NCBI GenBank assembly: GCA_022710935.1
Contig: JAKLFY010000066.1
Location: 1 to 35,300, forward strand
Reading direction: 5' to 3'
From: Verrucomicrobiota bacterium
Lineage (GTDB): Bacteria; Verrucomicrobiota; Verrucomicrobiia; Limisphaerales; J093
DNA: 35,300 nucleotides
Shown: one piece after another, positions 4,713-34,321 of the stretch
How the letters are laid out: every line of letters begins with the position of its first letter
Position numbering within the stretch: position 1 is the first letter of the stretch
The notes under the pieces: generated by a model
The model's database searches: none
What the model was told of the DNA's origin: nothing
What the model saw: only the letters and a program-made list of their open reading frames with translations
Position numbers and translations under genes: made by a program

Positions 4713-6804
4713 GCCCACCGTCAAGAGTACCCCACCCCCGACAACCGCCCAAACCCTATCAAGCCTTCTGAAGTCGGCACGCGACATCATGCGCAAAGAC
4801 AAGGGCCTGAACGGCGACCTCGACCGACTGCCGCTGTTGACATGGATCATGTTTTTGAAGTTTCTCGACGATCTTGAACTGCAGAGAGAGCAAGAAGCGA
4901 AACTGGCAGGGAAGCGATTCCGCGCCGCAATCGAAGCACCGTATCGCTGGCGCGATTGGGCGTCCAACCCCCACGGCGTGACGGGGGACGAACTACTTAC
5001 ATTCATCAACCAGGACGAATGTGTCCGCCCTGACGGCCAGCGGGGCTTGGGGCTATTCGCCTACCTCCGCGGCTTGACAAGCGCAAACGGAGACGAACGA
5101 CGCGACGTGGTCGCAACGGTATTTAGAGGCGTCGACAATCGCATGAAGAGTGGATACCTGTTGCGTGATGTAGTGAATAAAGTCGCGGGTCTCCATTTTA
5201 CCGCCAGTGAAGAGCTGCATACACTCGGGGCCCTTTACGAGTCGATGCTACGAGAAATGCGCGACGCAGCGGGCGATTCGGGCGAATTCTATACTCCGCG
5301 CCCCGTCGTGCGATTCATGGTTGACGTGATTGACCCTCGCCTCGGCGAAATTGTCCTCGACCCAGCTAGCGGCACGGGCGGGTTCTTGGTGGAAGCGTAC
5401 AAACACCTCGGCACGCAGGTGAAAACCGTCCAAGATCGCAAGTTTCTTCAAGAGAGATCCCTCCTCGGCTGCGAACCCAAGTCGCTACCCTACCTGTTGT
5501 GCCAAATGAACCTACTCCTGCATGGACTCAATTTCCCAAATATTGACCCGGGAAACGCCCTGCGCTTCCGATTGACTGAAATTGGCGAGAAGGATCGGGT
5601 GGATGTCATCCTCACGAACCCTCCGTTCGGTGGCGAGGAGGAGAAAGGCATCCAGGGCAACTTCCCCGATGATCGCCAGACATCGGAGACGGCTCTTCTA
5701 TTCATGCAGCTGATCATGCGCAGGCTCAAACGTCAGACCTCATCTGATGGTCGTGTCGCTCGTGCTGCGGTTGTGGTCCCCAACGGAGTGTTGTCGTCCC
5801 CGGGTGCGGCAAAGCGCATTCGGGCCGATTTGCTCGCTGACTTCAATCTTACGGCAGTAGTCCGTCTCCCTCACAATGTCTTTGCTCCCTACACGGACGT
5901 AAAGACCAACATCCTGTTCTTCGATCGGTCGGGACCCTCAACTGATATCCTATACTGCGAGCCACAGATTCCGCCCGGAGTCACATTAAGCAAGACAAAG
6001 CCGCTACAGTACGAATGGCTTACGACCCTGACCGAGGTCATCGCGCGTCGCGCTGCAAGCGACACATCGTGGCTCGTTCGGGTTGATGAGCTGGGCGCGG
6101 ACCTAAATCTTGATGTCAAGAATCCACGCCTGACGCTAGGCTCTATTGGCGATGCCGATACACTTGAGTGTCTGGCGGCGTCAATGAACCAGCTCGCGCT
6201 CGAGGCGGAATCAATAGCGAGAGTGGCGTCTGATTTGACGTCGCAAGTGCACGCTGCGCCACGTCGCCCTCTGGGGTTGCTCACATCAGAATCTGATGCA
6301 CGCATTGGCGATGACTACAGGCCAGACATTGCGCTCATTGGTGTTTCCGCGTCCGACGGACTATGTGCGCCGAAGACCGCCATTGGGAGCAATCCCAAGA
6401 GGTACAAGTTGCTGAAGCGGGGATTTCTTGCCTACAACCCGATGCGTCTGAATATCGGTTCCATTGGGTTTGTCAGATCTTCGAGCGAGGAAGGCATTAC
6501 AAGCCCAGACTACGTCGTCTTCGTGTGTGGCCAGTCTCTGTTGCCTGAGTTCGTCTACCACTATCTGCGAAGCGAACCGGGTCGTCACGCCATTAACCAG
6601 AAGACCAAGGGTTCAGTCAGGTTCCGCCTCTATTATGACCAACTTGCCAGTATTGAAATCCCTTGCCCCGAGGATCTCGAATTGCAGCGTAGATTCGCAG
6701 AGGCATGCACTCGACTTGAACAGGTGCGAGCGTCACTCTCCAATTGTGACGGCACTGCACGACGGTGTCTTAGTGCGATGACGCGAGCCGCCTTTCTCGA
6801 CTAG
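4702..6804 (+). CDS. hsdM: Type I methyltransferase with fused half-specificity domain (HsdM-HsdS)
   Basis: This protein methylates adenine in the system's target and, by inference, also selects it. The 700-residue product is some 200 residues longer than EcoEI-type HsdM. Residues 1 to about 480 form a complete HsdM: helical N-terminal domain, SAM motif DPASGTGGFLVEA near 220, catalytic motif NPPFGGEE near 305, and VVVPNGVL. Beyond residue 480 a helical linker leads into one HsdS-like target-recognition domain (LKRGFLAYNPMRLNIGSIG, then SPDYVVF, YHYLRSE and a final helical arm). No separate hsdS lies before or after. AAGGTG sits before ATG 4702, which overlaps the end of hsdR. Known M-S fusions with one recognition domain dimerise and read symmetric sites, so a palindromic bipartite target is plausible here. 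Confidence 0.9.
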   Translation: MPRKPTVKSTPPPTTAQTLSSLLKSARDIMRKDKGLNGDLDRLPLLTWIMFLKFLDDLELQREQEAKLAGKRFRAAIEAPYRWRDWASNPHGVTGDELLTFINQDECVRPDGQRGLGLFAYLRGLTSANGDERRDVVATVFRGVDNRMKSGYLLRDVVNKVAGLHFTASEELHTLGALYESMLREMRDAAGDSGEFYTPRPVVRFMVDVIDPRLGEIVLDPASGTGGFLVEAYKHLGTQVKTVQDRKFLQERSLLGCEPKSLPYLLCQMNLLLHGLNFPNIDPGNALRFRLTEIGEKDRVDVILTNPPFGGEEEKGIQGNFPDDRQTSETALLFMQLIMRRLKRQTSSDGRVARAAVVVPNGVLSSPGAAKRIRADLLADFNLTAVVRLPHNVFAPYTDVKTNILFFDRSGPSTDILYCEPQIPPGVTLSKTKPLQYEWLTTLTEVIARRAASDTSWLVRVDELGADLNLDVKNPRLTLGSIGDADTLECLAASMNQLALEAESIARVASDLTSQVHAAPRRPLGLLTSESDARIGDDYRPDIALIGVSASDGLCAPKTAIGSNPKRYKLLKRGFLAYNPMRLNIGSIGFVRSSSEEGITSPDYVVFVCGQSLLPEFVYHYLRSEPGRHAINQKTKGSVRFRLYYDQLASIEIPCPEDLELQRRFAEACTRLEQVRASLSNCDGTARRCLSAMTRAAFLD

Positions 6805-6997: not shown

Positions 6998-7963
6998 TCA
7001 AAGCCTGGATGCCGCCTCCCGGTCCGTCTTGCCAAGTGCAGCTTTCAGCTTGTTAAACGTCGGCCAGTGCACGTGAACTACGCTACCCGTGTTCAGATCG
7101 CTATCGTATTTCTTGAGGATCATGCTGCTGGTTTCGTTGCGGTATTCAACTATCTCGTTCTGGAAGACGGCACCCATTCGGTTCTGAACCGGTTCGTGCG
7201 AGACGGAAGTCGGTGTGCCATTGGCTTCGGCAAAGAGGCCCTTGATTCGCTCGAATCCATCGGACCGGCCAGTTGTTTCGACGTAGAAGAGCAAGGGCTC
7301 CCCTGAGTCGGTCGGTTGGTAGAAATAGAACGTGGTAGTAGCCCATTGGTCACCGAGCCACAGCCCTGCCTCGGAATACGACACCCGCGGCTTGTGGTCC
7401 GAGCGCCATTTGCGATCCACTTGCGGATAGTAGAGTTCGCCCTTGATGACGCCTGCGTCGGCCCAAGCACCCAGATAGGTGATCGTGGGCAAATCCGCCT
7501 GGGGTGGGTGCACATAGCACAAGACATCCGCGTACTTGGCGAGGTCCTCCTTCTTTACCGGTTTGATGTAGTTGTTTTCGTCGTGGCGATAGGGCTCGGG
7601 ATCACCCTCCAACTCGGCATCTGTGAATTCGAACGGCAGTATGTGCCGAATGTCTTTGATCGGGACCCAACGGGTGTGCTCGTTCTCTTTCCAGCTCCGG
7701 TGCATTGCCTTCCGGATGTCTGCGAGGGGCAACCAGGCATCGGTGGCCCACACGTAGGTCTGCTCTGAGGAGAAGAACATTCTCCCGCCTGGCCAGTCCT
7801 TGGAATCCGGATACGCCAGCGCAGCGATCTCGCTGATAGTAGCGCCGAGACGGTAGGTGCGCCGGGCATAGGACATATCGCCAGCGCTGCACGGGAACAC
7901 GGCGGTTGCGATGGCGAACAGCGCCAGTGCCAAGACGACAAGTCGACGCGTATTGCGGTTCAT
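6998..7963 (-). CDS. Secreted protein of unknown function
   Basis: The 321-residue product starts at ATG 7963 (minus strand), chosen because GGGAGG lies just upstream and the frame opens with a clear Sec signal peptide: MNRNTRR, a hydrophobic stretch of about 15 residues, then a plausible cleavage after CSAG. The mature part is soluble-looking, rich in Trp and Tyr, with no membrane span, lipobox or motif I recognise. A longer in-frame reading from 8089 would bury the signal peptide and was rejected. The gene is 133 bases beyond the holin gene and in the same direction, so it could be read through from the lysis operon, but its strong own ribosome site and lower GC suggest acquired cargo or host DNA at the phage edge. 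Function unknown. Confidence 0.7.
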   Translation of the reverse strand: MNRNTRRLVVLALALFAIATAVFPCSAGDMSYARRTYRLGATISEIAALAYPDSKDWPGGRMFFSSEQTYVWATDAWLPLADIRKAMHRSWKENEHTRWVPIKDIRHILPFEFTDAELEGDPEPYRHDENNYIKPVKKEDLAKYADVLCYVHPPQADLPTITYLGAWADAGVIKGELYYPQVDRKWRSDHKPRVSYSEAGLWLGDQWATTTFYFYQPTDSGEPLLFYVETTGRSDGFERIKGLFAEANGTPTSVSHEPVQNRMGAVFQNEIVEYRNETSSMILKKYDSDLNTGSVVHVHWPTFNKLKAALGKTDREAASRL

Positions 7964-9890: not shown

Positions 9891-10265
9891 TCACTCCCAC
9901 ATCAAATCCGCTCGCCCATCACCCGAGAGGAACGCGGCGTCCGGGGCATTCGGCTCGAAGATGAAGCGGACGGGCAAGCCCTCTCTCAGCGTGAAGGCCG
10001 TGTCTCCCAGGGCCACCTTCGGCTTGAGCTTCGACCAGGTGCTCGTGGTTGCGTTGTAGGACCAGAACGACATTGAGACGGCGCCCAAGTCGGGCAGCGC
10101 GTACATGTCGAGGATGTGCGCTCTCTTCGATCCCACCTGGCCCGTGCCGTAGAAGGGCACCCAACCGGTGACACCGGCTCGGGCCCCATCCTGAGCAGCC
10201 AGGCCAGGCAGAGGCGGCCACGCGACGGCCACGATCAGCAGCAGACAGATGACGATCTTCCTCAC
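9891..10265 (-). CDS. Small secreted protein of unknown function
   Basis: The 124-residue product starts at GTG 10265, with GGTGGAG seven bases before it. It opens with a signal peptide (RKIVICLLLIVAVAWPPL, cleavage expected after LAA). The remaining ~100 residues are beta-rich with several aromatic residues (WVPFYGTGQVGSKRAHIL, MSFWSYNATTSTWSKLKP) and end in DLMWE. An upstream extension in this frame runs through the antisense of the portal C-terminus and was not used. It directly precedes a second secreted-protein gene. The pair may function together; nothing in the sequence shows how. Confidence 0.62.
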   Translation of the reverse strand: MRKIVICLLLIVAVAWPPLPGLAAQDGARAGVTGWVPFYGTGQVGSKRAHILDMYALPDLGAVSMSFWSYNATTSTWSKLKPKVALGDTAFTLREGLPVRFIFEPNAPDAAFLSGDGRADLMWE

Positions 10266-25202: not shown

Positions 25203-27652
25203 TGGCCTTCTGGCTCCTGGCCCTGGTCTATATCGTGGGCACGGTCCTCTACGACGTTCTGCGCCCCAAGCCGAAGTTTGACGCGCCGGCGCCATCCAGC
25301 CTCGGGGATTTCCAGTTCCCCACGATCGGCGAGGGTCGTTCCATTCCGGTCGTCTGGGGAACCTGCAAGCTGTCGGGCCCCATGGTCACCTGGTACGGCG
25401 ACCTGCAGGTCCAGGCCATCAAGAAGGAGGTCAAGACGGGGCTGTTTTCCTCCGACGAAATCACCACCGGTTACCGCTACTTCCTCGGCGCCCAGCTGGT
25501 CCTGTGCGGTGGCGAGGTCGACGAAGTCCTGAAGATCCGCTTCGATGACCGCGCCCCCCCGGCGAACTACGCCCACCTCCCGGACCTGACTCAGATCCAC
25601 ATCAACGCCCCGAACTTCTTCGGTGGTGAGGAATCCGAAGGCGGTGTTGCAGGCAGCATCTACGTCTACCACGGGACGGCCACCCAGCCGGTGGACACCT
25701 ACCTCGAGGATCGCATTAACCAGAGCCTGCCCGCCTGGCGGCGCGTCAGCTACGCCGTGTTCCGGCATGTCTATCTGGGGACGAGCCCGTACATCAAGGC
25801 CGTCTCGTTCGTGGTCCGGCGCTGCCCGAACGGCCTCGGGCTGTCGGGCGGCGCCGAGAATATCGACGGCGATGCCAATCCGGCGGCCATGATCTACGAC
25901 ATCCTGATTTCGCCGGCTTCGGGGAACGGACTCGGGCTGCCGGTGGGATTCCTGGACGTGGCTGCGTTCCGCGCGGTCGGTCAGACCCTGGCCACCGAGG
26001 GTCTCGGACTCTCCATGCTTCAAGACCGCTCCACGACCGCGAAGGACCTCGTCCTTGAGATCCTGCGCCACATCGACGGCGTCATGTACGTCGAGCCCAC
26101 GACTGGACTCCTGACGATCCACTTGATCCGGTACGACTACGACCCCGAGGCGATCCCGGTGCTCGATGCGGACTCGTGCACGGTGAAGTCGTTCGCCCGG
26201 CCATCCTGGGGCGACCTCAAGAACACCGTGCGGGTGGGCTACGTCAGCCGCGACGCCGGATTCATCGAGAAGACCGCTCAGGCCCAGGACCTGGCCTCGA
26301 TCGAGATCCAAGGTGGCGAGGTCTCGCTCCAGGAGATCACGTTGCGAGGGCTGTCCAATCCCACGACGGCGCAGCAGGCGGCCGCGAGGGCGCTGGCCGC
26401 TCTCGCCTATCCGCTGGCCACGATCACGATCGAGGCTGATCGCTCAGCCTGGGCGTTCCGTCCCGGGGCGGTGTTCAAGCTCGTCTGGGACCCGCTTGGC
26501 ATTGGCGGCATGGTGTGCCGGGCGGTCCGCGTCGGCACCGGCCGGCTCGATTCAGGGAAGATCGAGATCGAGGCCATGGAGGACATCTTTGCCGTGGACT
26601 GGACGGGCTATTCGGCTCCGCCGGCTTCCGGGTGGGAAGACCCCTCCGGAGACGCGCCCGCGTTGACCGATCAGGCCGTCCTGGCCGCGCCCTATGAGGC
26701 GGCTAAGACCTACGGGAGCCTGACGCCCGGCGTGCAGTTGGCCATCACGCTCGCGGCCCGAGGAGCGACTGGGATCTCCCTCGGATACCGCGCCCATGCG
26801 GCCGATGGTGTGGGTGGTTGGGCACCGCCTGTCGACGTCCCGTTCTTCACGCCGTCGGGGGTTCTCAGCACGGCGATCGACGAGCTCACCAGCGAGATTG
26901 TCGTGGCTTCCGGCCTGGATACCGACCTGGTCGCTTCGGTCAGCGGCCCCGACTTCTCGCTCGGAGTCAACGTCGCCTGGCTGGCCCATGACGGGCTGGA
27001 GGAGTTCATCGCGTTCCAGAACGTGGTCCAGGATGGGGGTGGCATCTCACTGCAGGTCGTCGCCCGCGGCTGCTTGGACACTGCGCCGACGGCGTTCCCC
27101 GCCGGCACGCGCGTGTGGTTCATCTCCTACGGCAGCCAGGTCGTGAACATTCGCGGGCCAGTGCCGCCGACCGTCAACGTCAGCAACGACATACGCCTCC
27201 AGCCTTTCAACAACCAGAGTGAGTACAACTTCTCGTCGTGCCCGACGTCGCAAGTTGTGGCCCCCACGCCGGCGCGGTCGGCGAAGGTCTACTGCCCGAC
27301 CGACGTGCGATTCAACGGGGAGAGCTATCCGGCGTCCATCACTGGTGAGTTGTCCGTGTCCTGGTCACACCGGAATCGGCTCGGGACGTGGAGCTATACC
27401 GACTCGGGCAAGACGACCACGCCTGAGCCGGGAACCGAATACGATGTTCTCGTTTACGGCGAGCTCGGCACGCTTGTCCATACCGCTGCCGGGCTGACGG
27501 GTACGTCTTGGTCGTATCTCGAGGCGACTGAGGTCACCGAGTCTGGCCTGGCTCGGCTCAACAATCATCTGCGGGTGGTCATTCGGACCTACGGAGCGGG
27601 GCGAGCTCACGTGGCGATTCGGGAGATCGAGTGGGTGTTCGGCAGAATCTGA
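25202..27652 (+). CDS. Tail tip attachment protein (J-like)
   Basis: The 816-residue product starts at ATG 25202 in a TGATG overlap with the BR0599 gene. An N-terminal hydrophobic helix (FWLLALVYIVGTVLYDVL) is followed by the typical hub start FPTIGEGRSIPVVWGTCKLS. Next come YRYFLGAQLVLCGGEVDEVL, a central region resembling the putative phage tail domain (TTAKDLVLEILRHIDGVMY, ADRSAWAFRPGAVFKLVWD), and C-terminal beta-rich domains with a terminal lectin-like stretch (VCPTDVRFNGESY-type region). It would form the tail tip and contact the receptor. It ends the plus-strand operon, 65 bases before a convergent gene. The NlpC/P60 peptidase common before J in related phages is absent. Confidence 0.85.
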   Translation: MAFWLLALVYIVGTVLYDVLRPKPKFDAPAPSSLGDFQFPTIGEGRSIPVVWGTCKLSGPMVTWYGDLQVQAIKKEVKTGLFSSDEITTGYRYFLGAQLVLCGGEVDEVLKIRFDDRAPPANYAHLPDLTQIHINAPNFFGGEESEGGVAGSIYVYHGTATQPVDTYLEDRINQSLPAWRRVSYAVFRHVYLGTSPYIKAVSFVVRRCPNGLGLSGGAENIDGDANPAAMIYDILISPASGNGLGLPVGFLDVAAFRAVGQTLATEGLGLSMLQDRSTTAKDLVLEILRHIDGVMYVEPTTGLLTIHLIRYDYDPEAIPVLDADSCTVKSFARPSWGDLKNTVRVGYVSRDAGFIEKTAQAQDLASIEIQGGEVSLQEITLRGLSNPTTAQQAAARALAALAYPLATITIEADRSAWAFRPGAVFKLVWDPLGIGGMVCRAVRVGTGRLDSGKIEIEAMEDIFAVDWTGYSAPPASGWEDPSGDAPALTDQAVLAAPYEAAKTYGSLTPGVQLAITLAARGATGISLGYRAHAADGVGGWAPPVDVPFFTPSGVLSTAIDELTSEIVVASGLDTDLVASVSGPDFSLGVNVAWLAHDGLEEFIAFQNVVQDGGGISLQVVARGCLDTAPTAFPAGTRVWFISYGSQVVNIRGPVPPTVNVSNDIRLQPFNNQSEYNFSSCPTSQVVAPTPARSAKVYCPTDVRFNGESYPASITGELSVSWSHRNRLGTWSYTDSGKTTTPEPGTEYDVLVYGELGTLVHTAAGLTGTSWSYLEATEVTESGLARLNNHLRVVIRTYGAGRAHVAIREIEWVFGRI

Positions 27653-27676
27653 CGTTTGCAGGGTCCAAGAATGCAC

Positions 27677-27703
27677 CGGACGAACTTTAAGAATCACCGT
27701 CCG
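27677..27703. terminator. Possible hairpin between convergent genes
   Basis: CGGACG at 27677-27682 pairs with CGTCCG at 27698-27703, with a 15-base loop, in the 64 bases between the end of the J-like gene and the convergent end of the HEPN gene. There is no U-tract on either side, so it is at best a weak bidirectional terminator. Confidence 0.25.
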
Positions 27704-27716
27704 CGGCGACATGTGG

Positions 27717-29123
27717 TTACGGCATCTTCTTCCTGCCCAACCTGTCAAAAGCAACACCAAGGCTGACATCAGTAGCCTGATTCTTGGTCGTTAGACAGTG
27801 AAATAGGTCCATAGCTCCAATGAGGCCGTTGGCGCAGAAGTAGTCTCCATAGGTCCCGCCCCACTCAAGTCGCCTTGCATCCGGCAAATCATCGCCATGC
27901 ATGATCTCGCAGCGCAAATCGTAAAACTTCACCAAATCGGATTCAAGCTCTTCTTGTGGATACTTGCTGTTAGTTCCCTTCAACAGCAACGCCATCCGGA
28001 ACACGAGTTTGCGCGAGACATTATTCCCTTTCCCCGTGATCACAAGTCTTTCCATGCACGCTGAGTATTTTGCAATCTGGCTCGGAAGGTGATCGTCCCG
28101 GATGGCCTCGCCGTACCAGCGCAAAGCCTCTAGATAACGCCTCCAGATTGGGGCAGGGGCCTTGTCCGTGGTGAGTGCATGAAGGAGATGGCCGCCAATT
28201 GTGAAGAACCACTTCCAGTTGTGGCCGATCACCTCAGCCCAACCATCACCCATCGCAACGCCGCGCATGCTGCTACTGTGCGAGAACAGTAGCCTCCCTT
28301 CATGAGTCTCGCTCAGCCAGGCCTTCTGAGTCGGCTCCATCGCTCCGTACCCGATGCGCATTCGTCGCCCTCGTTCTCCCCGTGTAGCGACACAGAGAAG
28401 ATCGATCGCCGATTGAACGGTACTGATAGCGCGCTCTCGGGAAACACCAGAATGGCATGGATCAATCCAAACGGACGCTATCCACGGAAACGACGAGAAG
28501 AACTCACTATTCGCGCGCAAGTACGGGGAAATCTCCCCTCCGTCGGCGGCGGTCTTGAGGAGTTCCATCCCGCTCTGTGAACGTGCTGCGTTGGTCTTCT
28601 CGATGTGATCATTTTCCCACTCAAGAATCGCTTGCTGCTTGTCCGCGAGGAACTGGGCGGTCTCGGTAAAGCGCACCGGACCAATCGCGAACCAGTGCGG
28701 ATTCGTTTCGTGAACTGTCACACACGGGATATGGTGCGTCAGGCCGAGGCTCTTGCGATCGAGCGTCGCGGTCAGTTTCACCAGAATTGCTGACAGATCA
28801 TCGTCCTCAATATCCCGACCAGCCAACAAGATATCCTCAATGAGCATCTTCTTAACTTCTTTGACGACCACGTCACGGTCGTAATGATCTCGGTTTTCGC
28901 TGTACTCATGATAGAGATCGCAGAAATCAAGTACTCTAGCGCCGGCTGCGGCTCCGATAATCGTGGGCGACTTCTTGTCTGTTACCGCCGGCAACATGTG
29001 CATTAGATCTTGCTTCGGCTCATGTTTGAGAAGCTCTTCTGCCGGCATTTTGGCGAATCGCACCGCTTCATTTGCGATGAACTGGATGTGTTCCCAAGCT
29101 TTTTCGTAGTCGATGGAGTACAT
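27717..29123 (-). CDS. HEPN-domain protein (Apea-like)
   Basis: The 468-residue product starts at ATG 29123 (MYSIDYEKAW); an in-frame codon at 29153 adds a basic stretch without support. The first ~330 residues are unrecognised and mixed helical (EHIQFIANEAVRFAKMP, RDHYDRDVVVKEVKKMLIED). The C-terminal ~130 have the look of an Apea-like HEPN domain: ALRWYGEAIRDDHLPSQIAK, SRKLVFRMALLLKG, and the R-x4-H motif LRCEIMHGDD (Arg404, His409). HEPN domains with this motif are often metal-independent RNases in toxin and phage-defence systems. The gene follows a YaaC-like and a SIR2-like gene on the same strand, 118 bases after the former. Role in defence is inferred from partners and fold. Confidence 0.7.
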   Translation of the reverse strand: MYSIDYEKAWEHIQFIANEAVRFAKMPAEELLKHEPKQDLMHMLPAVTDKKSPTIIGAAAGARVLDFCDLYHEYSENRDHYDRDVVVKEVKKMLIEDILLAGRDIEDDDLSAILVKLTATLDRKSLGLTHHIPCVTVHETNPHWFAIGPVRFTETAQFLADKQQAILEWENDHIEKTNAARSQSGMELLKTAADGGEISPYLRANSEFFSSFPWIASVWIDPCHSGVSRERAISTVQSAIDLLCVATRGERGRRMRIGYGAMEPTQKAWLSETHEGRLLFSHSSSMRGVAMGDGWAEVIGHNWKWFFTIGGHLLHALTTDKAPAPIWRRYLEALRWYGEAIRDDHLPSQIAKYSACMERLVITGKGNNVSRKLVFRMALLLKGTNSKYPQEELESDLVKFYDLRCEIMHGDDLPDARRLEWGGTYGDYFCANGLIGAMDLFHCLTTKNQATDVSLGVAFDRLGRKKMP

Positions 29124-29241
29124 AACTACTCGCAAGTTTCTTCTTGGTCGCAAGTGAGCGGCGCTGTCCGGGCAGCTGCTGTCCCAGAAAGTCCAGCGAT
29201 GGCCTGTCGCCGCGCCCTTTGCAGCAGAGACCGGCTACAGG

Positions 29242-30324
29242 CTATTCACGAACCACGGCCATGGGCTTGACTACATCGACACCCGCCATTTCGCTGGCAA
29301 AAGTGTAGACGATCTGCAATGGAAGTGTCGCGAGCAATTCCTCGCATAGCCATCCGTACTTGCCAGCCCTGATCTTGTCGAAATCCGCTGGCTTGTATCG
29401 CGTAATTGAGCCCAAGTAAAACATTGCCGCCGTGGCGGCCGCCAGTGGCGGCAAGAACACCGCCTGGTCAGCAATACAGAGATAGTGCCGATACCCCTCT
29501 CCTGTGAGGATGGAACTCAACTGAATTCCACGTAGTTCCGCAGCGAGCGTCTTGAACGTGGGCGCGACGCCCTGCCCCCGAGCGCGCCTCCTGTCCGTCT
29601 CAAACCACACTTCACCCTTGTTCGGGGAGGATACTCGCTTGACCGGGCCACTGCAGGACATTCCTTGCCATATCTTCATCGCCTCGCGCTCCTTGTCGTT
29701 ACGCGGAGCCAGTATCACCCGTGACCAGGCGTGTGAGTCTTTGCAGACGAGCTCGATGCGTTTGACAGGAATGAACTGGTTCTTTGACGAGGCCACCTGC
29801 GCGTAGGTGCGGTGCACAGATGGTATTTGGGCGACCACCGTGAGGAACGAAATAGCCCGGTCACCGGAGACCGTGCCGCCCAGTGCGGCTAGAAACTCAG
29901 GGAACAGTTGCGAGTGATCGCCCGCGCGGTTCTGGATCAGGATGTTCTGTCCTTCAAGACGAAAGCGTTCACGAATATTCGCGCGGGGGTCAGAGATCCC
30001 GTGTCTGGCGGCAGATGGAATTGCTACGTTGCGGAGAAGCAGCAGAACTTTTTCAAGGTTCAGGAAGGAATAGTAGTACAATATCGGCTTGGACCCCAGG
30101 CGTGGGGCTGATGCCGCATCATAGAAATCCGAAGCTTGTTCAATGTATGCCCGAGCCTCAGGTCTCTTCGCGCTTGCCAGTTCAGATGTAACGAGATGTT
30201 CCATTAGGGCGAACGGATTAGAGGTTATTATCCGCTGCCGTTTCTTCTGAAAGAACATCGGGAAGCCGGATGTTCTGTCATCGACGACGCGCCCTTCACG
30301 AAACGCTGGATGTGGGGACGGCAT
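29242..30324 (-). CDS. YaaC-like protein
   Basis: The 360-residue product starts at ATG 30324, with AGAGG upstream. It matches the YaaC pattern: an early helix region, PILYYYSFLNLEKVLLLL near residue 81, and the C-terminal block FYLGSITRYKPADFDKIRAG, followed by KYGWLCEELLATLPLQIVYT and SEMAGVDVVKP. YaaC proteins are widespread and of unknown function; they appear to be mostly helical. The gene lies 56 bases after the SIR2-like gene on the same strand, suggesting an operon. In a defence setting it could be the sensor or regulator between the two putative effectors, but nothing in the sequence proves this. Confidence 0.75.
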   Translation of the reverse strand: MPSPHPAFREGRVVDDRTSGFPMFFQKKRQRIITSNPFALMEHLVTSELASAKRPEARAYIEQASDFYDAASAPRLGSKPILYYYSFLNLEKVLLLLRNVAIPSAARHGISDPRANIRERFRLEGQNILIQNRAGDHSQLFPEFLAALGGTVSGDRAISFLTVVAQIPSVHRTYAQVASSKNQFIPVKRIELVCKDSHAWSRVILAPRNDKEREAMKIWQGMSCSGPVKRVSSPNKGEVWFETDRRRARGQGVAPTFKTLAAELRGIQLSSILTGEGYRHYLCIADQAVFLPPLAAATAAMFYLGSITRYKPADFDKIRAGKYGWLCEELLATLPLQIVYTFASEMAGVDVVKPMAVVRE

Positions 30325-30380
30325 GCTCTAAACCTCTGCTGCTTCGAGTCCACTGATGTCGACGCAAAACGCTCGACATC

Positions 30381-31412
30381 CTATTGCTCGACGATACCTG
30401 CCTCATTAGAATGCTCCGCGGCTATGAAGGGACTTAGCCAGTCCACGAGGTCTTCCAGTTGGCTGCAATCTGGCATTCCGACAGGTTCGTATGGCTTCAA
30501 CTCCATTACGGATTGCCAGAATGCTTCGCACGAACGGCGCGGGTAGTCGACCGCGTATGAGAGTCTGTAATTATCAACGATGCCGTAGTGATGAGTATGC
30601 ACAAATGAGGACCACGTTTGCCGCAGCGTCGATTCGTCCTGAATGTCAATGATCTCGGTCTGCTCCAGATTTCTTTCCTCTGCTTTGCCCCAGGCCGACC
30701 TCAGTAATTCAATTGCCGCCACGTCGGCAGTCGGCGCGCTGTATCCAAACACGGTGAAGAAGTACGCAGCTTTCATCGATCGCTGCATGTCGATCCATTC
30801 GTGCCGGAGCACTTCGTCACTCGTGTAGTCCTTGTCTGCTACAGGGAAAAGCAGGCGCGATTGCTCAAATGTCCCCCCGCACTTCCTGCACGTGGCGCCC
30901 ACTGGGCCCTTGATAGGGTCTCGCTGACAGTATCCAACGGCGACATTTCCATGAAGGAACGCCACACGCGGGACGGGTGCATACCGAGAAACACGACAGG
31001 CCGCGGCCCACAAGAACGGATCCCAGTTGAATGTTGCGATCATGTCCTTAGCGCGCAGCGAGAGCACCATGATGTCGTAAAGCGTTGGTCCTGGCGATAA
31101 TTCCAGATTCGTGAAGTAGCTGACGACACGCTTCTCAATGTGACTGCGCAGCGCACCTCCGTCGTCGCGTGCAGCAATTTCCTGAAATAGTAGCTCGAAG
31201 TTGCGATCGACATTTGCAATTCCGAACTGTCGAAGTTCGGCTCGCAACTCAAGCACGTCGACGAAGTCCTTCATAACAGGCAACCGCCGACCCCACCTAT
31301 CTCCGTTCGGAAACGCCGCGCGGCTCGCCCCAGCGCCCAGCAACAGTACGTGTGGGCGGCCGAACTTCGTATTCGCGATCAGATCTTCGTTGCCATTGAT
31401 GGGGCACTTCAC
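30381..31412 (-). CDS. SIR2-like NAD-binding protein
   Basis: The 343-residue product starts at GTG 31412, behind GGGAAG. SIR2-type features are clear: VLLLGAGASRAAF (GAGAS at 26-30) for NAD binding, IATFNWDPF with Asn129 and Asp131, and a catalytic-type His154 in FLHGNV. One CRKCGG pair in the middle could be part of a metal site, and YFFTVFGYSAPTAD is the late glycine-serine motif. SIR2-like proteins in phage defence typically degrade NAD to stop infection; that role is inferred here from context. It is the first gene of the SIR2-YaaC-HEPN module and begins only about 20 bases after an attC-like site, so its expression may rely on readthrough from upstream cassettes. Confidence 0.78.
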   Translation of the reverse strand: MKCPINGNEDLIANTKFGRPHVLLLGAGASRAAFPNGDRWGRRLPVMKDFVDVLELRAELRQFGIANVDRNFELLFQEIAARDDGGALRSHIEKRVVSYFTNLELSPGPTLYDIMVLSLRAKDMIATFNWDPFLWAAACRVSRYAPVPRVAFLHGNVAVGYCQRDPIKGPVGATCRKCGGTFEQSRLLFPVADKDYTSDEVLRHEWIDMQRSMKAAYFFTVFGYSAPTADVAAIELLRSAWGKAEERNLEQTEIIDIQDESTLRQTWSSFVHTHHYGIVDNYRLSYAVDYPRRSCEAFWQSVMELKPYEPVGMPDCSQLEDLVDWLSPFIAAEHSNEAGIVEQ

Positions 31413-31432
31413 GATAGGGCACTTCCCAGCTT

Positions 31433-31534
31433 GCTAGCACCCAGATTCAGCACCAAAGACGGCCGGCACGTGCCGTGCGCAAGCACGGACCACGATAGGC
31501 GGCTTCGTCTGCTGCAAGATCTGGAGAGATCGGC
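31433..31534 (-). other. attC-like recombination site 1 (degenerate core sites)
   Basis: Read on the minus strand, a stem-loop region of about 100 bases runs from GCCGATCTCTCCAGATC through a conserved block to GAATCTGGGTGCTAGCA. The arms CCAGATC...CTGCTG and CAGATTCAGC are largely complementary. A 22-base block (31497-31518) is identical to one in site 3 (33418-33439). Both core sites depart from RYYYAAC and GTTRRRY, so recombination may be weak or lost. It separates the VanZ-like gene from the SIR2-like gene. Confidence 0.58.
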
Positions 31535-31596
31535 ATCAGCGCTTTCAAGTCCGCGCACCGGCCTCATGTCGCCAACAGGTATCGCGTCCACCCTGC

Positions 31597-32007
31597 TCAT
31601 GAAGTGCCCTGGTCTTTTCGCAGGATCAGCCTCGCGACGACGTATGCGGTTGAGGTACTAATCACCGACGCGACAAGGTCGACAGGGTCAAACGTGTAGT
31701 GCACCCGCGCTAGGACGCCAGGGCGCGGAAGCAATTGGACAAGCTCCAGCATCACCGACGTTGCCGCCACAAGAAGCGTGACTTGACCCAGGCTCAAGCG
31801 TGATATGCGTCCCGTGCTGGACAAGAGCAAAAACAGGAGCCCGGCCGGACCTAGGATGCTGGGGGCAACCCCGACCACCGCACCGCTCTCTCCGTGAGGC
31901 GCCAGGCGCAAGAGCTTGATCGGGAGTATCGCGAACAGAAGCACCATGCCCGCCCATCCAAATACGCGCTCGTTGGCGATAGAGGTTCTTCTGCGCTCGC
32001 GCATCAT
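31597..32007 (-). CDS. VanZ-like membrane protein
   Basis: The 136-residue product starts at ATG 32007 in an ATGA overlap with the GNAT gene. It has four hydrophobic segments (WAGMVLLFAILPIKLL, ILGPAGLLFLLLSS, VTLLVAATSVMLELVQLL, LVASVISTSTAYVVARLI). The VanZ-family pattern E-x2-Q in LELVQLLPRPG is followed by FDPVDLVASVIS. VanZ-like proteins are small four-TM proteins; the prototype affects teicoplanin resistance, while most are uncharacterised. This gene shares one cassette with the acetyltransferase, and an attC-like site follows about 60 bases after the stop. Confidence 0.72.
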   Translation of the reverse strand: MMRERRRTSIANERVFGWAGMVLLFAILPIKLLRLAPHGESGAVVGVAPSILGPAGLLFLLLSSTGRISRLSLGQVTLLVAATSVMLELVQLLPRPGVLARVHYTFDPVDLVASVISTSTAYVVARLILRKDQGTS

Positions 32008-32450
32008 TCAGATCGTCCACAACTACGCGGTCTTCCGGGCCGCCACATCAGCACCACGGGGCGTCCTGCTTCAAGGTAGCTCTCCAGTCGATTGACAAGG
32101 AACCCGGGCACCTCCATTGCGAAATCGTCTCCGAAGCCAATTGCCGCATAGAATTTGCGCAAGTGAGAATATGGGATGCACCAGCACCCTCGCAAACCTA
32201 AATGGCTCTCCACGGAAGCGAGCAGAGCGCTTCCAATCCCCTGTCGCCGAAAGCGCTCATCGACATACATTCCGCGCAGGACCAAGTGGCCGTTCTCGCT
32301 GGCGACACGAACTGCGGCGACCATTTTCCCTCCCATGCGACCCCCAATTACGGTGTCGCTGGCCCCAATGCCGCCACCGTAGCCAACACGGCAATAGAGC
32401 GCAGCCACCTCGCCGTGTTGCTTCGCAGCTACCTCGCTTACCTCAAGCAC
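32004..32450 (-). CDS. GNAT-family N-acetyltransferase
   Basis: The 148-residue product starts at GTG 32450 behind GAGGAG, only about 15 bases after the core of attC-like site 2, as is usual for integron cassettes. It has the GNAT acetyl-CoA site RRQGIGSALL (R-x-x-G-x-G/A) following MYVDERF, and a C-terminal FYAAIGFGDDFAME strand that matches the family. The substrate cannot be told. The extreme C-terminus is Arg/Pro-rich and overlaps the VanZ-like start, so the two proteins are probably made together. GNAT genes are frequent cassette cargo. Confidence 0.85.
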   Translation of the reverse strand: MLEVSEVAAKQHGEVAALYCRVGYGGGIGASDTVIGGRMGGKMVAAVRVASENGHLVLRGMYVDERFRRQGIGSALLASVESHLGLRGCWCIPYSHLRKFYAAIGFGDDFAMEVPGFLVNRLESYLEAGRPVVLMWRPGRPRSCGRSE

Positions 32451-32463
32451 CGGAGGCTCCTCT

Positions 32464-32560
32464 GACTAACACCTGATTCAGCAGTGGGCGCTGTTCGCGC
32501 GGGCCGCGCGTTGCACCGACCGTGACGGCCGCGACCATCCGCTGCGACCTGAGGTTAGGC
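32464..32560 (-). other. attC-like recombination site 2
   Basis: On the minus strand the 97-base site opens with the perfect R'' core GCCTAAC (32560-32554), 14 bases after the stop of the PH-domain gene, and ends with GTTAGTC (32470-32464), immediately followed by the leader of the GNAT gene. The arms (GCCTAACCTCAGGTCGCAGC against GACTAACACCTGATTCAGCA on the plus strand) form an imperfect stem of the kind seen in attC. Length is within the normal 57-141 base range. Confidence 0.75.
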
Positions 32561-32573
32561 AACTATCTCCGAC

Positions 32574-33005
32574 TCAAGGTGCTTGCACCCTAATCCCAGG
32601 CGACATTGCCCGAAGATCACTCAGGAATGCGACCGTATCAACAGGCGCGATCTCAATGGATGCCCGACCGCGTCCGTATTCCAACCTGATTCGGTCACAC
32701 GACAGGGCGGCACTGGATGCAATGCTATGGATGCGCGATACGGCGCGAATGTCCTGCACCGGTATGACCCACCGCAGCAGCCCATGGCGCACGCACAGTT
32801 GGCCGTCGCCCAGATCGTAATGTGTCCGGATTAGAAGCAACAAGACAAACACGCCCGCCCCGACAATCACCAAGAAACCTGCTGATTTCACAATCGCCCC
32901 GGCGGACGATTCAATTAGCGCGGGAATGGATGCGACACAAAGTGTCACTGTTACCGACAACATGATTACTGCCCACCTATCGCGCTTTCCTTGATATCGC
33001 CTCAT
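32574..33005 (-). CDS. Bacterial PH-domain membrane protein (DUF1200-like)
   Basis: The 143-residue product starts at ATG 33005, with AGAGGGGG upstream; a longer in-frame reading to 33062 passes into the attC-like site and was rejected. Two membrane spans (WAVIMLSVTVTLCVASIPAL and VKSAGFLVIVGAGVFVLLLL) are followed by the YyaB/DUF1200 pattern: THYDLGDGQLCVRHGLLRWV, IPVQDIRAVSRIHS, and IEIAPVDTVAFLSDLRAMSP near the end. The PH-like fold is probably cytoplasmic and of unknown ligand. It occupies a single cassette between attC-like sites 4 and 2. Confidence 0.72.
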   Translation of the reverse strand: MRRYQGKRDRWAVIMLSVTVTLCVASIPALIESSAGAIVKSAGFLVIVGAGVFVLLLLIRTHYDLGDGQLCVRHGLLRWVIPVQDIRAVSRIHSIASSAALSCDRIRLEYGRGRASIEIAPVDTVAFLSDLRAMSPGIRVQAP

Positions 33006-33037
33006 AGAGTCCCCCTCTTGCTCCGTTATCACTGTCC

Positions 33038-33122
33038 GCCTAACACCTTCCGCCGCCGCCAATGTACTTCATGGCCATGACGCGCGTTTCTTCGGGGTAG
33101 TGCGACTAGCTGCGCTATGGCC
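33038..33122 (-). other. attC-like recombination site 4
   Basis: On the minus strand the site ends in a perfect core GTTAGGC (33044-33038), preceded by GCGGCGGAAGGT, and the next gene follows after about 33 bases. The opposite core is poor: it would be GGCCATAGC at 33114-33122, overlapping the TAG stop of the preceding small gene. Stop codons inside the R'' core are common in cassettes. The stem is weaker than in sites 2 and 3. Confidence 0.5.
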
Positions 33123-33330
33123 TTCTCAGGCGTCTGACTGCAACGAGGAGCAGCGTCTGGGTGAGGGCGCTTACAGGTACGGCAACCCAGACAACTGTCC
33201 ACTCGAGCGCGAGGTCGGGCTCCACCCCCTGCATTATGTCGAGGAGTGCCAGGAACTCGGCGGCGATCAGCACCAGGCCAAGGCCGCCCAATCCGATGGC
33301 TGCCCCGATGAGCTTCTGTGCGTAGCGCAT
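33115..33330 (-). CDS. Small two-TM membrane protein (cassette gene)
   Basis: The 71-residue product starts at ATG 33330, with GGAGG five bases upstream. Two hydrophobic segments are seen (LIGAAIGLGGLGLVLIAAEF and VVWVAVPVSALTQTLLLVAV), separated by a short acidic loop, and it ends in RRLRRP. An in-frame extension upstream to 33489 translates attC-like site 3 and was rejected. Tiny hydrophobic proteins are typical of cassette arrays and usually lack known functions. It begins about 23 bases after site 3 and stops inside site 4. Confidence 0.62.
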   Translation of the reverse strand: MRYAQKLIGAAIGLGGLGLVLIAAEFLALLDIMQGVEPDLALEWTVVWVAVPVSALTQTLLLVAVRRLRRP

Positions 33331-33352
33331 GCAACCTCCGTCTGGTTCGTGA

Positions 33353-33451
33353 TTCTGACACCTTGCTTCAGGAGTGAGCCCGGATGCCGTTGGGCGTGTG
33401 CAATCTCCGACCGTGACAGGCGGCTTCGTCTGCTGCAAGCTTTGGTTAGGC
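33353..33451 (-). other. attC-like recombination site 3
   Basis: On the minus strand the 99-base site opens with perfect GCCTAAC (33451-33445), continues with CAAAGCTTGCAGCAG, and closes with CTCCTGAAGCAAGGTGTCAG. Arms pair imperfectly around the AGCTTGCAGCAG and CTTGCTTCAGGAG stretches. The closing core is GTCAGAA rather than GTTRRRY. Part of the site (33418-33439) is identical to attC-like site 1. The next gene, for a 71-residue membrane protein, begins at 33330. Confidence 0.7.
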
Positions 33452-33476
33452 TGCCGCGCCACTGCAACTCCAATCC

Positions 33477-33563
33477 CTAGAACGCCCACGAGACCTGGCC
33501 GAGTACATATTCCACGCGCCGGTCGTCCAGCACCAAGATCCGCAGCGAAGCCTTTACATCAAT
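33477..33563 (-). pseudogene. Possible gene remnant: 28-residue C-terminal end
   Basis: An open stretch of 28 residues ends in VEYVLGQVSWAF and a TAG, preceded in frame by a stop at 33564-33566. The alternating hydrophobic pattern with a final aromatic residue is the style of the last strand of an outer-membrane beta-barrel protein. There is no start codon or ribosome site of its own, so it may be the residue of a decayed gene between the lipoprotein gene and attC-like site 3. Chance cannot be excluded. Confidence 0.28.
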
Positions 33564-33610
33564 CTATCGGCGCACGGACACTTCCTACCTCTCGAAAGGT
33601 GTCCTAGAAT

Positions 33611-33976
33611 TTACCTCGCGATCGGCACCACACGCGCGGTATCGCCTTCAAATCGTATTTCGTAATCGTAGCAGTACTCAGCCTGAAAATCGGTGTAGTA
33701 TGGTACTGGAATATCGCCCCAAGTAAGTGCCAGATCTGTCACACCGGTCGGGATTACTCGTCCTTCAGTAGACACCCCACCCTCCACTTCGCCAAAATTC
33801 AGTGAGGTGCCATCGCTCATCTCTACGTAGGCCACAACGATTCCTGACGTGTTATTCACAACGGCTATCGTTGGGTCCTCTTCATCACAGCCGCAGCCAG
33901 CCAGGGCGAAACAGAGTACAGAAGCCAGAACTGGAAAAACCGGCCTTCTCCAACTCGACAGCGTTCCATGCGTCAA
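33611..33976 (-). CDS. Small lipoprotein (cassette gene)
   Basis: The 121-residue product is read from TTG 33976, behind GAGGAG at a suitable distance. It has a lipoprotein signal: basic N-terminus, hydrophobic VFPVLASVLCFALAGC with a LAGC lipobox, then acidic CDEEDP. The remaining ~85 residues are beta-rich (PTIAVVNNTSGIVVAYVEMS, VTDLALTWGDIPVPYYTDFQ). No family is recognised. It follows attC-like site 5 by about 50 bases and so looks like the first cassette gene of the array in this window. The TTG start is uncertain, but the lipobox makes a true gene likely. Confidence 0.62.
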   Translation of the reverse strand: MTHGTLSSWRRPVFPVLASVLCFALAGCGCDEEDPTIAVVNNTSGIVVAYVEMSDGTSLNFGEVEGGVSTEGRVIPTGVTDLALTWGDIPVPYYTDFQAEYCYDYEIRFEGDTARVVPIAR

Positions 33977-34027
33977 TACGATGCTCCTCAGCGATTACGG
34001 CGCACCACGAAACCAGGACCTACACTT

Positions 34028-34120
34028 GCCTAACACGAATTGGCCGACGGCGGCATCAGGTGGGCAGCCCGCCAGAAAACTATCGGCGTCGATCCCGGCC
34101 GCAACCGGAATTCAGGTCGA
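34028..34120 (-). other. attC-like recombination site 5
   Basis: On the minus strand the site ends with a perfect core GTTAGGC (34034-34028), preceded by GGCCAATTCGT. Its other arm, GACCTGAATTCCGGTTGCGG, pairs partly with it through GAATT and GCGGC. The opposite core is degenerate. It marks the upstream boundary of the lipoprotein cassette. Confidence 0.48.
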
Positions 34121-34321
34121 TTCCCGGGCACTGTCGTCGAGATTCGCTGGTCAGAATATCAGATCAGCCCCGGCTTGAAATCACCCTGATCTTACCATTT
34201 CACCCCTGCGTGGTCAAAACCCCCGTTCCGCCCCGACACATCAATCACCCACGGGGTACATAACCAAGAGAAGGACACTCTGCGCTTTAGGCAGGGCCCA
34301 GGTTTCGCCCCGGGAGTGACG
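34121..34321. other. Boundary between cassette array and resumed phage genes
   Basis: No gene is supported here. An integron integrase and attI site would be expected on this side of a complete integron because the cassettes read leftward, but the next gene is an HTH protein in the opposite direction. Sequence GC rises toward 34270. No strong promoter or terminator was recognised. Confidence 0.4.

Follow-up and report, generated by a model that had tools for sequence, protein, structure and literature searches.

The window analysed here is an entire contig of 35.3 kb (35,300 nucleotides) from a 7.5-Mb genome assembly. It is a tailed phage or prophage, with genes for a helicase, a methyltransferase, a major head protein, a tape-measure protein and tail proteins, and could be a phage contig mis-binned with this genome. 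Between a tail gene that ends at 27652 and a cro-like gene at 34316 lies an interval (27653-34307) whose genes and repeats, as described below, are read on the minus strand. From the cro side, these are a 121-aa ORF called p121 (33611-33976; an ORF call, first cassette gene on this side, no family match), a small membrane-protein gene (33115-33330, the ATG version, read from the sequence, of the ORF 33115-33489), the ORF of a bPH_4-domain membrane protein (32574-33062; Pfam PF06713, E 3.9e-15), and the GNAT acetyltransferase gene (32004-32450; PF13508, E 4.6e-10), whose cassette includes as its second gene that of a VanZ-like small membrane protein (31597-32007; a weak Pfam match below the cut-off). 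Beyond these lie the genes of a SIR2-like protein of 343 aa with a GTG start (30381-31412), with the motifs GAGAS at residue 26, TFNWD at 127 and LHG at 153, of a YaaC-family protein of 360 aa (29242-30324; PF14175, E 9e-30), 56 nt beyond SIR2, and, a further 88 nt on, of a HEPN-like protein of 478 aa (27717-29153) with an RCEIMH motif at 414. A perfect 8-bp inverted repeat, GATGTCGA ... TCGACATC, is located between SIR2 and YaaC (30380-30355, minus strand).

Three repeats are interspersed among these genes, namely site 1 (31432-31530), with R'' ATCTCTC at 31524-31530, R' GCTAGCA at 31432-31438 and an intact central stem; site B (32464-32560), the best preserved, with R'' GCCTAAC and R' GTTAGTC; and site 3 (33353-33451), with an intact R'' GCCTAAC and a decayed R' GTCAGAA. 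The alignment indicated that the three are homologous over their full length of ~99 nt, with a mean column identity of 80%.

The window repeats belong to an attC type found in integron arrays

Three covariance models were used: a general model of 19 proteobacterial attCs (class 1, Shewanella, Vibrio and Thiodictyon arrays), a window model of the three window sites only, and an outside model of outside attC sites only, with the window sites left out. All E-values are rough, owing to the short calibration, and the genome samples were drawn rather than exhaustive. The general model recovered the sites in known attC arrays and missed those of the window, which therefore represent another attC type; resemblance to familiar attCs alone could thus not have settled their identity. 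A strict RYYYAAC/GTTRRRY scan was rejected as a site finder, as it missed the window sites because of the decayed boxes in two of them and the GTTAGTC end of site B.

Over 286 genomes of the class, the window model gave matches at E ≤0.001 in nine, the window's own genome included. At E ≤0.05 it gave 73 matches in loci of other genomes, some of them in arrays near integron integrases; three of these are palindromic sites read on the opposite strand, and some sites are counted twice because a few loci overlap. In five genomes (G141 C1, G046 C5, G156 C5, G261 C24 and, across an apparent contig origin, G092 C1) matches on the expected, canonical strand lie near an integron integrase scoring above its family cut-off, and another locus (G144 C10, L127) carries about 28 tandem sites of this type on one strand within 14.7 kb. 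The structure common to the 73 outside matches has 29 predicted pairs, 20 of which show at least one double compensatory change.

Searched with the outside model, the window yielded site 1 as its top match (37.7 bits, E 3.9e-9), followed by site B (35 bits, E 2.7e-8) and, weakly, site 3 (11 bits); the matches of this model at E ≤0.01 across 53 other loci all fall in integron loci. Since a model trained on outside sites recovers it, site 1 is a genuine attC. Neither of its boxes (R'' ATCTCTC, R' GCTAGCA) still follows the patterns RYYYAAC and GTTRRRY, and with both mutated the site is a decayed relic; what the original prediction had called an attC-like, dying site is therefore a true attC and is indeed in decay. 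The single-strand fold of site 1 had a z-score of -3.2 on the plus strand and -2.0 on the minus strand.

It is extremely improbable that the repeats are some other repeat of the phage. Such a reading would accord with the misses of the general model and with the folding of sites B and 3, which was no better than that of shuffled sequences, but other genomes have arrays of this repeat family close to integron integrases, and the repeat is absent from all phage relatives searched. An exact 20-mer of the sites was likewise sought in viral contigs and not found.

The attC cluster occupies a hypervariable phage cargo locus

IMG/VR relatives and two further contigs of the window's own genome keep one gene order: a tail gene, the variable interval, the cro-like gene and a minor tail gene. 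In relatives, this interval can be as short as 35 bp or as long as 7.9 kb, and the homology of the window to them ends at about 27652 and 34308. The interval that the cassettes fill (27653-34307) is thus a hypervariable cargo locus of the phage, a point that goes beyond the original prediction. Some relatives carry putative defence genes without attC sites in this interval, and the cargo of several others is not recognisably defensive. No attC or cassette was found in the 37 loci searched from other members of the phage family.

The cargo was seen to be very diverse in loci L017, L019, L020, L024, L027, L032, L033, L035, L061, L067 and L068; its putatively defensive items include a HerA-type ATPase with a methyltransferase (L068), a cytidine-deaminase-domain protein (L067), PIN and a phosphorylase. 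In the two other own-genome copies, the right edge of the cargo carries duplicated pieces of the cro-like gene (L068 8374-8543 and L067 5044-5079), possibly a trace of the way in which cargo is inserted.

A TIGR02249 search of the window's own genome found no integron integrase on the window contig and two full ones on other contigs, both of which also carry matches to the outside model. Sites 1, B and 3 lie within about 2 kb, and at least two clustered attC sites define a cluster of this kind; with no integrase on the contig, the array is therefore a phage CALIN, an attC cluster without integrase. A host integron integrase may insert cassettes directly at a preferred place in the phage cargo locus, which we consider quite unlikely; if true, integrons would regularly supply phages with defence genes.

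SIR2 is spaced from site 1 like a cassette gene

The cassettes would derive from an integron with the attC type of this lineage, and would run, away from cro, in the order p121, site 3, small membrane gene, bPH, site B, GNAT/VanZ, site 1 and SIR2. Two GTTAGGC boxes, recognised by sequence and pattern, mark cassette boundaries: one at 33038-33044, opening the bPH cassette, is exactly complementary to the site B R'' GCCTAAC, and another at 34028-34034, on the cro-side edge of the array, is exactly complementary to the site 3 R''. In the bPH and p121 cassettes, R'' is thus complementary to the first bases of the cassette at 7 of 7 positions. No full attC was recognised around the first box, and neither a full attC nor an attI around the second. 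The true start of the bPH gene probably lies inside this ORF, downstream of the box at 33038.

The gap between site 1 and the GTG start of SIR2 is 19 nt. Counted from the first base of R', the start of SIR2 follows after 26 nt, that of GNAT after 20 nt behind site B, and that of the small membrane gene after 25 nt behind site 3; the spacing in outside arrays is mostly 7-25 nt, and 26 nt still falls inside the span of true arrays. The gap of about 20 bases that had been predicted from the sequence, and its likeness to that of the GNAT and small membrane genes, were accordingly both upheld by measurement. At 10% of random positions, and after 52% of outside attC sites, an ORF of at least 60 aa begins no more than 30 nt away, so that the spacing alone is about fivefold, modest evidence.

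Search for a terminal attC

Using the three models with filters off, no acceptable attC was found after SIR2, YaaC or HEPN in 27640-31400, and the SIR2 gene thus lacks an attC of its own at the 3′ side. The sole R''/R' pair at the expected 3′ end is a weak one at 27735-27796 (minus strand, GTCTAAC ... GTTGGGC), which overlaps the end of HEPN.

This pair would have to end a single cassette of about 3.7 kb comprising SIR2, YaaC and HEPN, a reading that we regard as very unlikely. Strict R''/R' pairs occur at 0.013 per kb of strand in relatives, and a Markov simulation gave P about 0.006 for one in the last 220 nt, so a pair in this position is rare; the best window match of the general model also falls here, though on the plus strand and with E=1. 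On the other side, the arms of the pair match no better than chance (P 0.17), the outside model scores it at 8 bits and on the plus strand only, the HEPN coding sequence extends about 20 nt beyond the crossover point, and the three genes were not seen together elsewhere. The exceptionally long three-gene cassette that had been suggested, with its terminal attC near the end of HEPN to be sought by folding and covariance model, consequently did not hold up, whereas the placement of SIR2 as a cassette gene did.

Homologues as cassettes and the origin of the SIR2 gene

A SIR2 homologue with 40% identity in Pseudoalteromonas piscicida (L099) is a single-gene cassette with its own attC: its start follows GTTAGAGC, and the attC lies at 7011-7065 (E 2e-4) with R'' GCTCTAAC. 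A neighbouring cassette gene there belongs to PF13289. A YaaC homologue with 25% identity in Vibrio sp. HDW18 (L108) is also a single-gene cassette, flanked on both sides by VCR-like repeats, which were read from the sequence and score weakly with the general model. Most SIR2 homologues do not adjoin an attC; eleven other loci with a SIR2, YaaC or HEPN homologue showed no attC, and the integron arrays found in the host's phylum contained no SIR2 or YaaC homologue. The homologues occur apart, and SIR2, YaaC and HEPN were not reunited in the loci found elsewhere. The expectation that the module would recur between flanking attC sites in other genomes therefore stands in part: a SIR2 and a YaaC homologue each form a single-gene cassette, and the trio was not seen together. 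The opposite outcome named in the original prediction, that homologous modules never adjoin attC sites, is contradicted by the SIR2 homologue with its own attC.

The Pseudoalteromonas locus also contains two copies of a transposase-bearing element that end nearly identically, directly before GTTA (5930-5943 and 10160-10180), as if this element targeted attC sites.

Taken together, the spacing, the exact 7/7 complementarity of R'' in two neighbouring cassettes and the cassette homologues elsewhere point to a cassette origin, and SIR2 probably came as a cassette that has lost its 3′ attC. Alternatively, SIR2, YaaC and HEPN arrived separately by another route, such as recombination between phages, and came to abut a dying attC by chance. 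The hypervariability of the cargo locus, the putative defence genes without attC in L068 and L067, the missing terminal attC and the 10% of random positions at which an ORF starts within 30 nt would all agree with this; the junction, however, would have to fall inside the 19 nt that separate R' from the GTG, and a SIR2 homologue is a cassette elsewhere, so we hold separate arrival to be unlikely.

Under the favoured cassette origin, SIR2 would have arrived as the gene of a cassette, placed 26 nt behind the R' of site 1, and its own 3′ attC would since have been lost, so that it would no longer be mobile as a cassette. YaaC and HEPN would be cassettes fused by the same attC loss, or genes that arrived separately. 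The SIR2 unit is presumably transcribed from upstream, since a promoter of its own, apart from the attC itself, would not fit into the 19 nt.

Relation to known systems

CALINs and integrons have been reported in phage genomes (Qi et al., 2023, PMC9892861), where the main examples are Vibrio, Escherichia, Shewanella, Tetrasphaera, Polaribacter and Pseudoalteromonas phages. Like these phage CALINs, the array of the window lies in a phage genome and comprises attC sites and cassette genes but no integrase; it differs in its partly decayed sites, its hypervariable cargo locus and the SIR2-like candidate defence gene at its end. Taxon-specific attC sites of chromosomes have been modelled for 11 taxa, Planctomycetes included (Ghaly et al., 2021, PMC8352920), and the sites described here similarly share sequence and structure within one lineage.

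Integrons are reported to hold collections of cassettes that act against phages (Darracq et al., 2025; Kieffer et al., 2025; Getz et al., 2025; as cited in PMC12409362 and PMC12444791). The window resembles these collections in that a candidate defence gene occupies the position of an integron cassette; it differs in the phage location, the decayed attC, the lack of a terminal attC and the putative nature of the function. Hotspots of antiviral systems are known in P2-like phages and P4-like satellites (Cell Host Microbe, 2022, PMC9122126); there, as here, conserved phage genes flank a variable cargo that includes some putative defence genes, while the window belongs to another phage family, the cargo of several relatives is not recognisably defensive and the cassette array is present in one member.

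The window is thus one more case of a known route for moving defence genes, and brings together an integron cassette array, a variable phage cargo locus and a SIR2-like candidate defence gene, which are usually seen apart. The SIR2 and YaaC homologues as integron cassettes are a useful addition and, being single-gene cassettes in other bacteria, are good candidates for tests of integron-borne defence. A narrow literature search on YaaC with SIR2 returned nothing relevant, a result that does not prove the absence of reports.

Putative function of SIR2, YaaC and HEPN

In a seven-row SIR2 alignment, GAGAS, TFNWD and LHG were invariant, in agreement with the motif patterns GxGxS, TxNxD and HG. The SIR2 protein gave no Pfam or NCBIfam match, the HEPN protein no family match above the cut-off in either collection, and PADLOC profiles matched none of the three proteins. 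An AlphaFold2 model of SIR2 from three sequences had a pLDDT of 49, too poor for use. The phylum sample contained one remote HEPN homologue (23% identity); none was found in plasmids, and SIR2 relatives were absent from the viral contigs and phages searched.

The three genes would most likely be anti-phage cargo. The SIR2-like protein would serve as an NAD-degrading effector, with YaaC as its partner and HEPN as an RNase. In another genome (G457; L171, 6301-8376), a YaaC homologue with 43% identity adjoins a phospholipase of the patatin type that comes near the CBASS lipase model, scoring 188 bits against a cut-off of 200 for the CBASS phospholipase, and this CBASS-like neighbour fits a putative role of YaaC as a partner of defence effectors.
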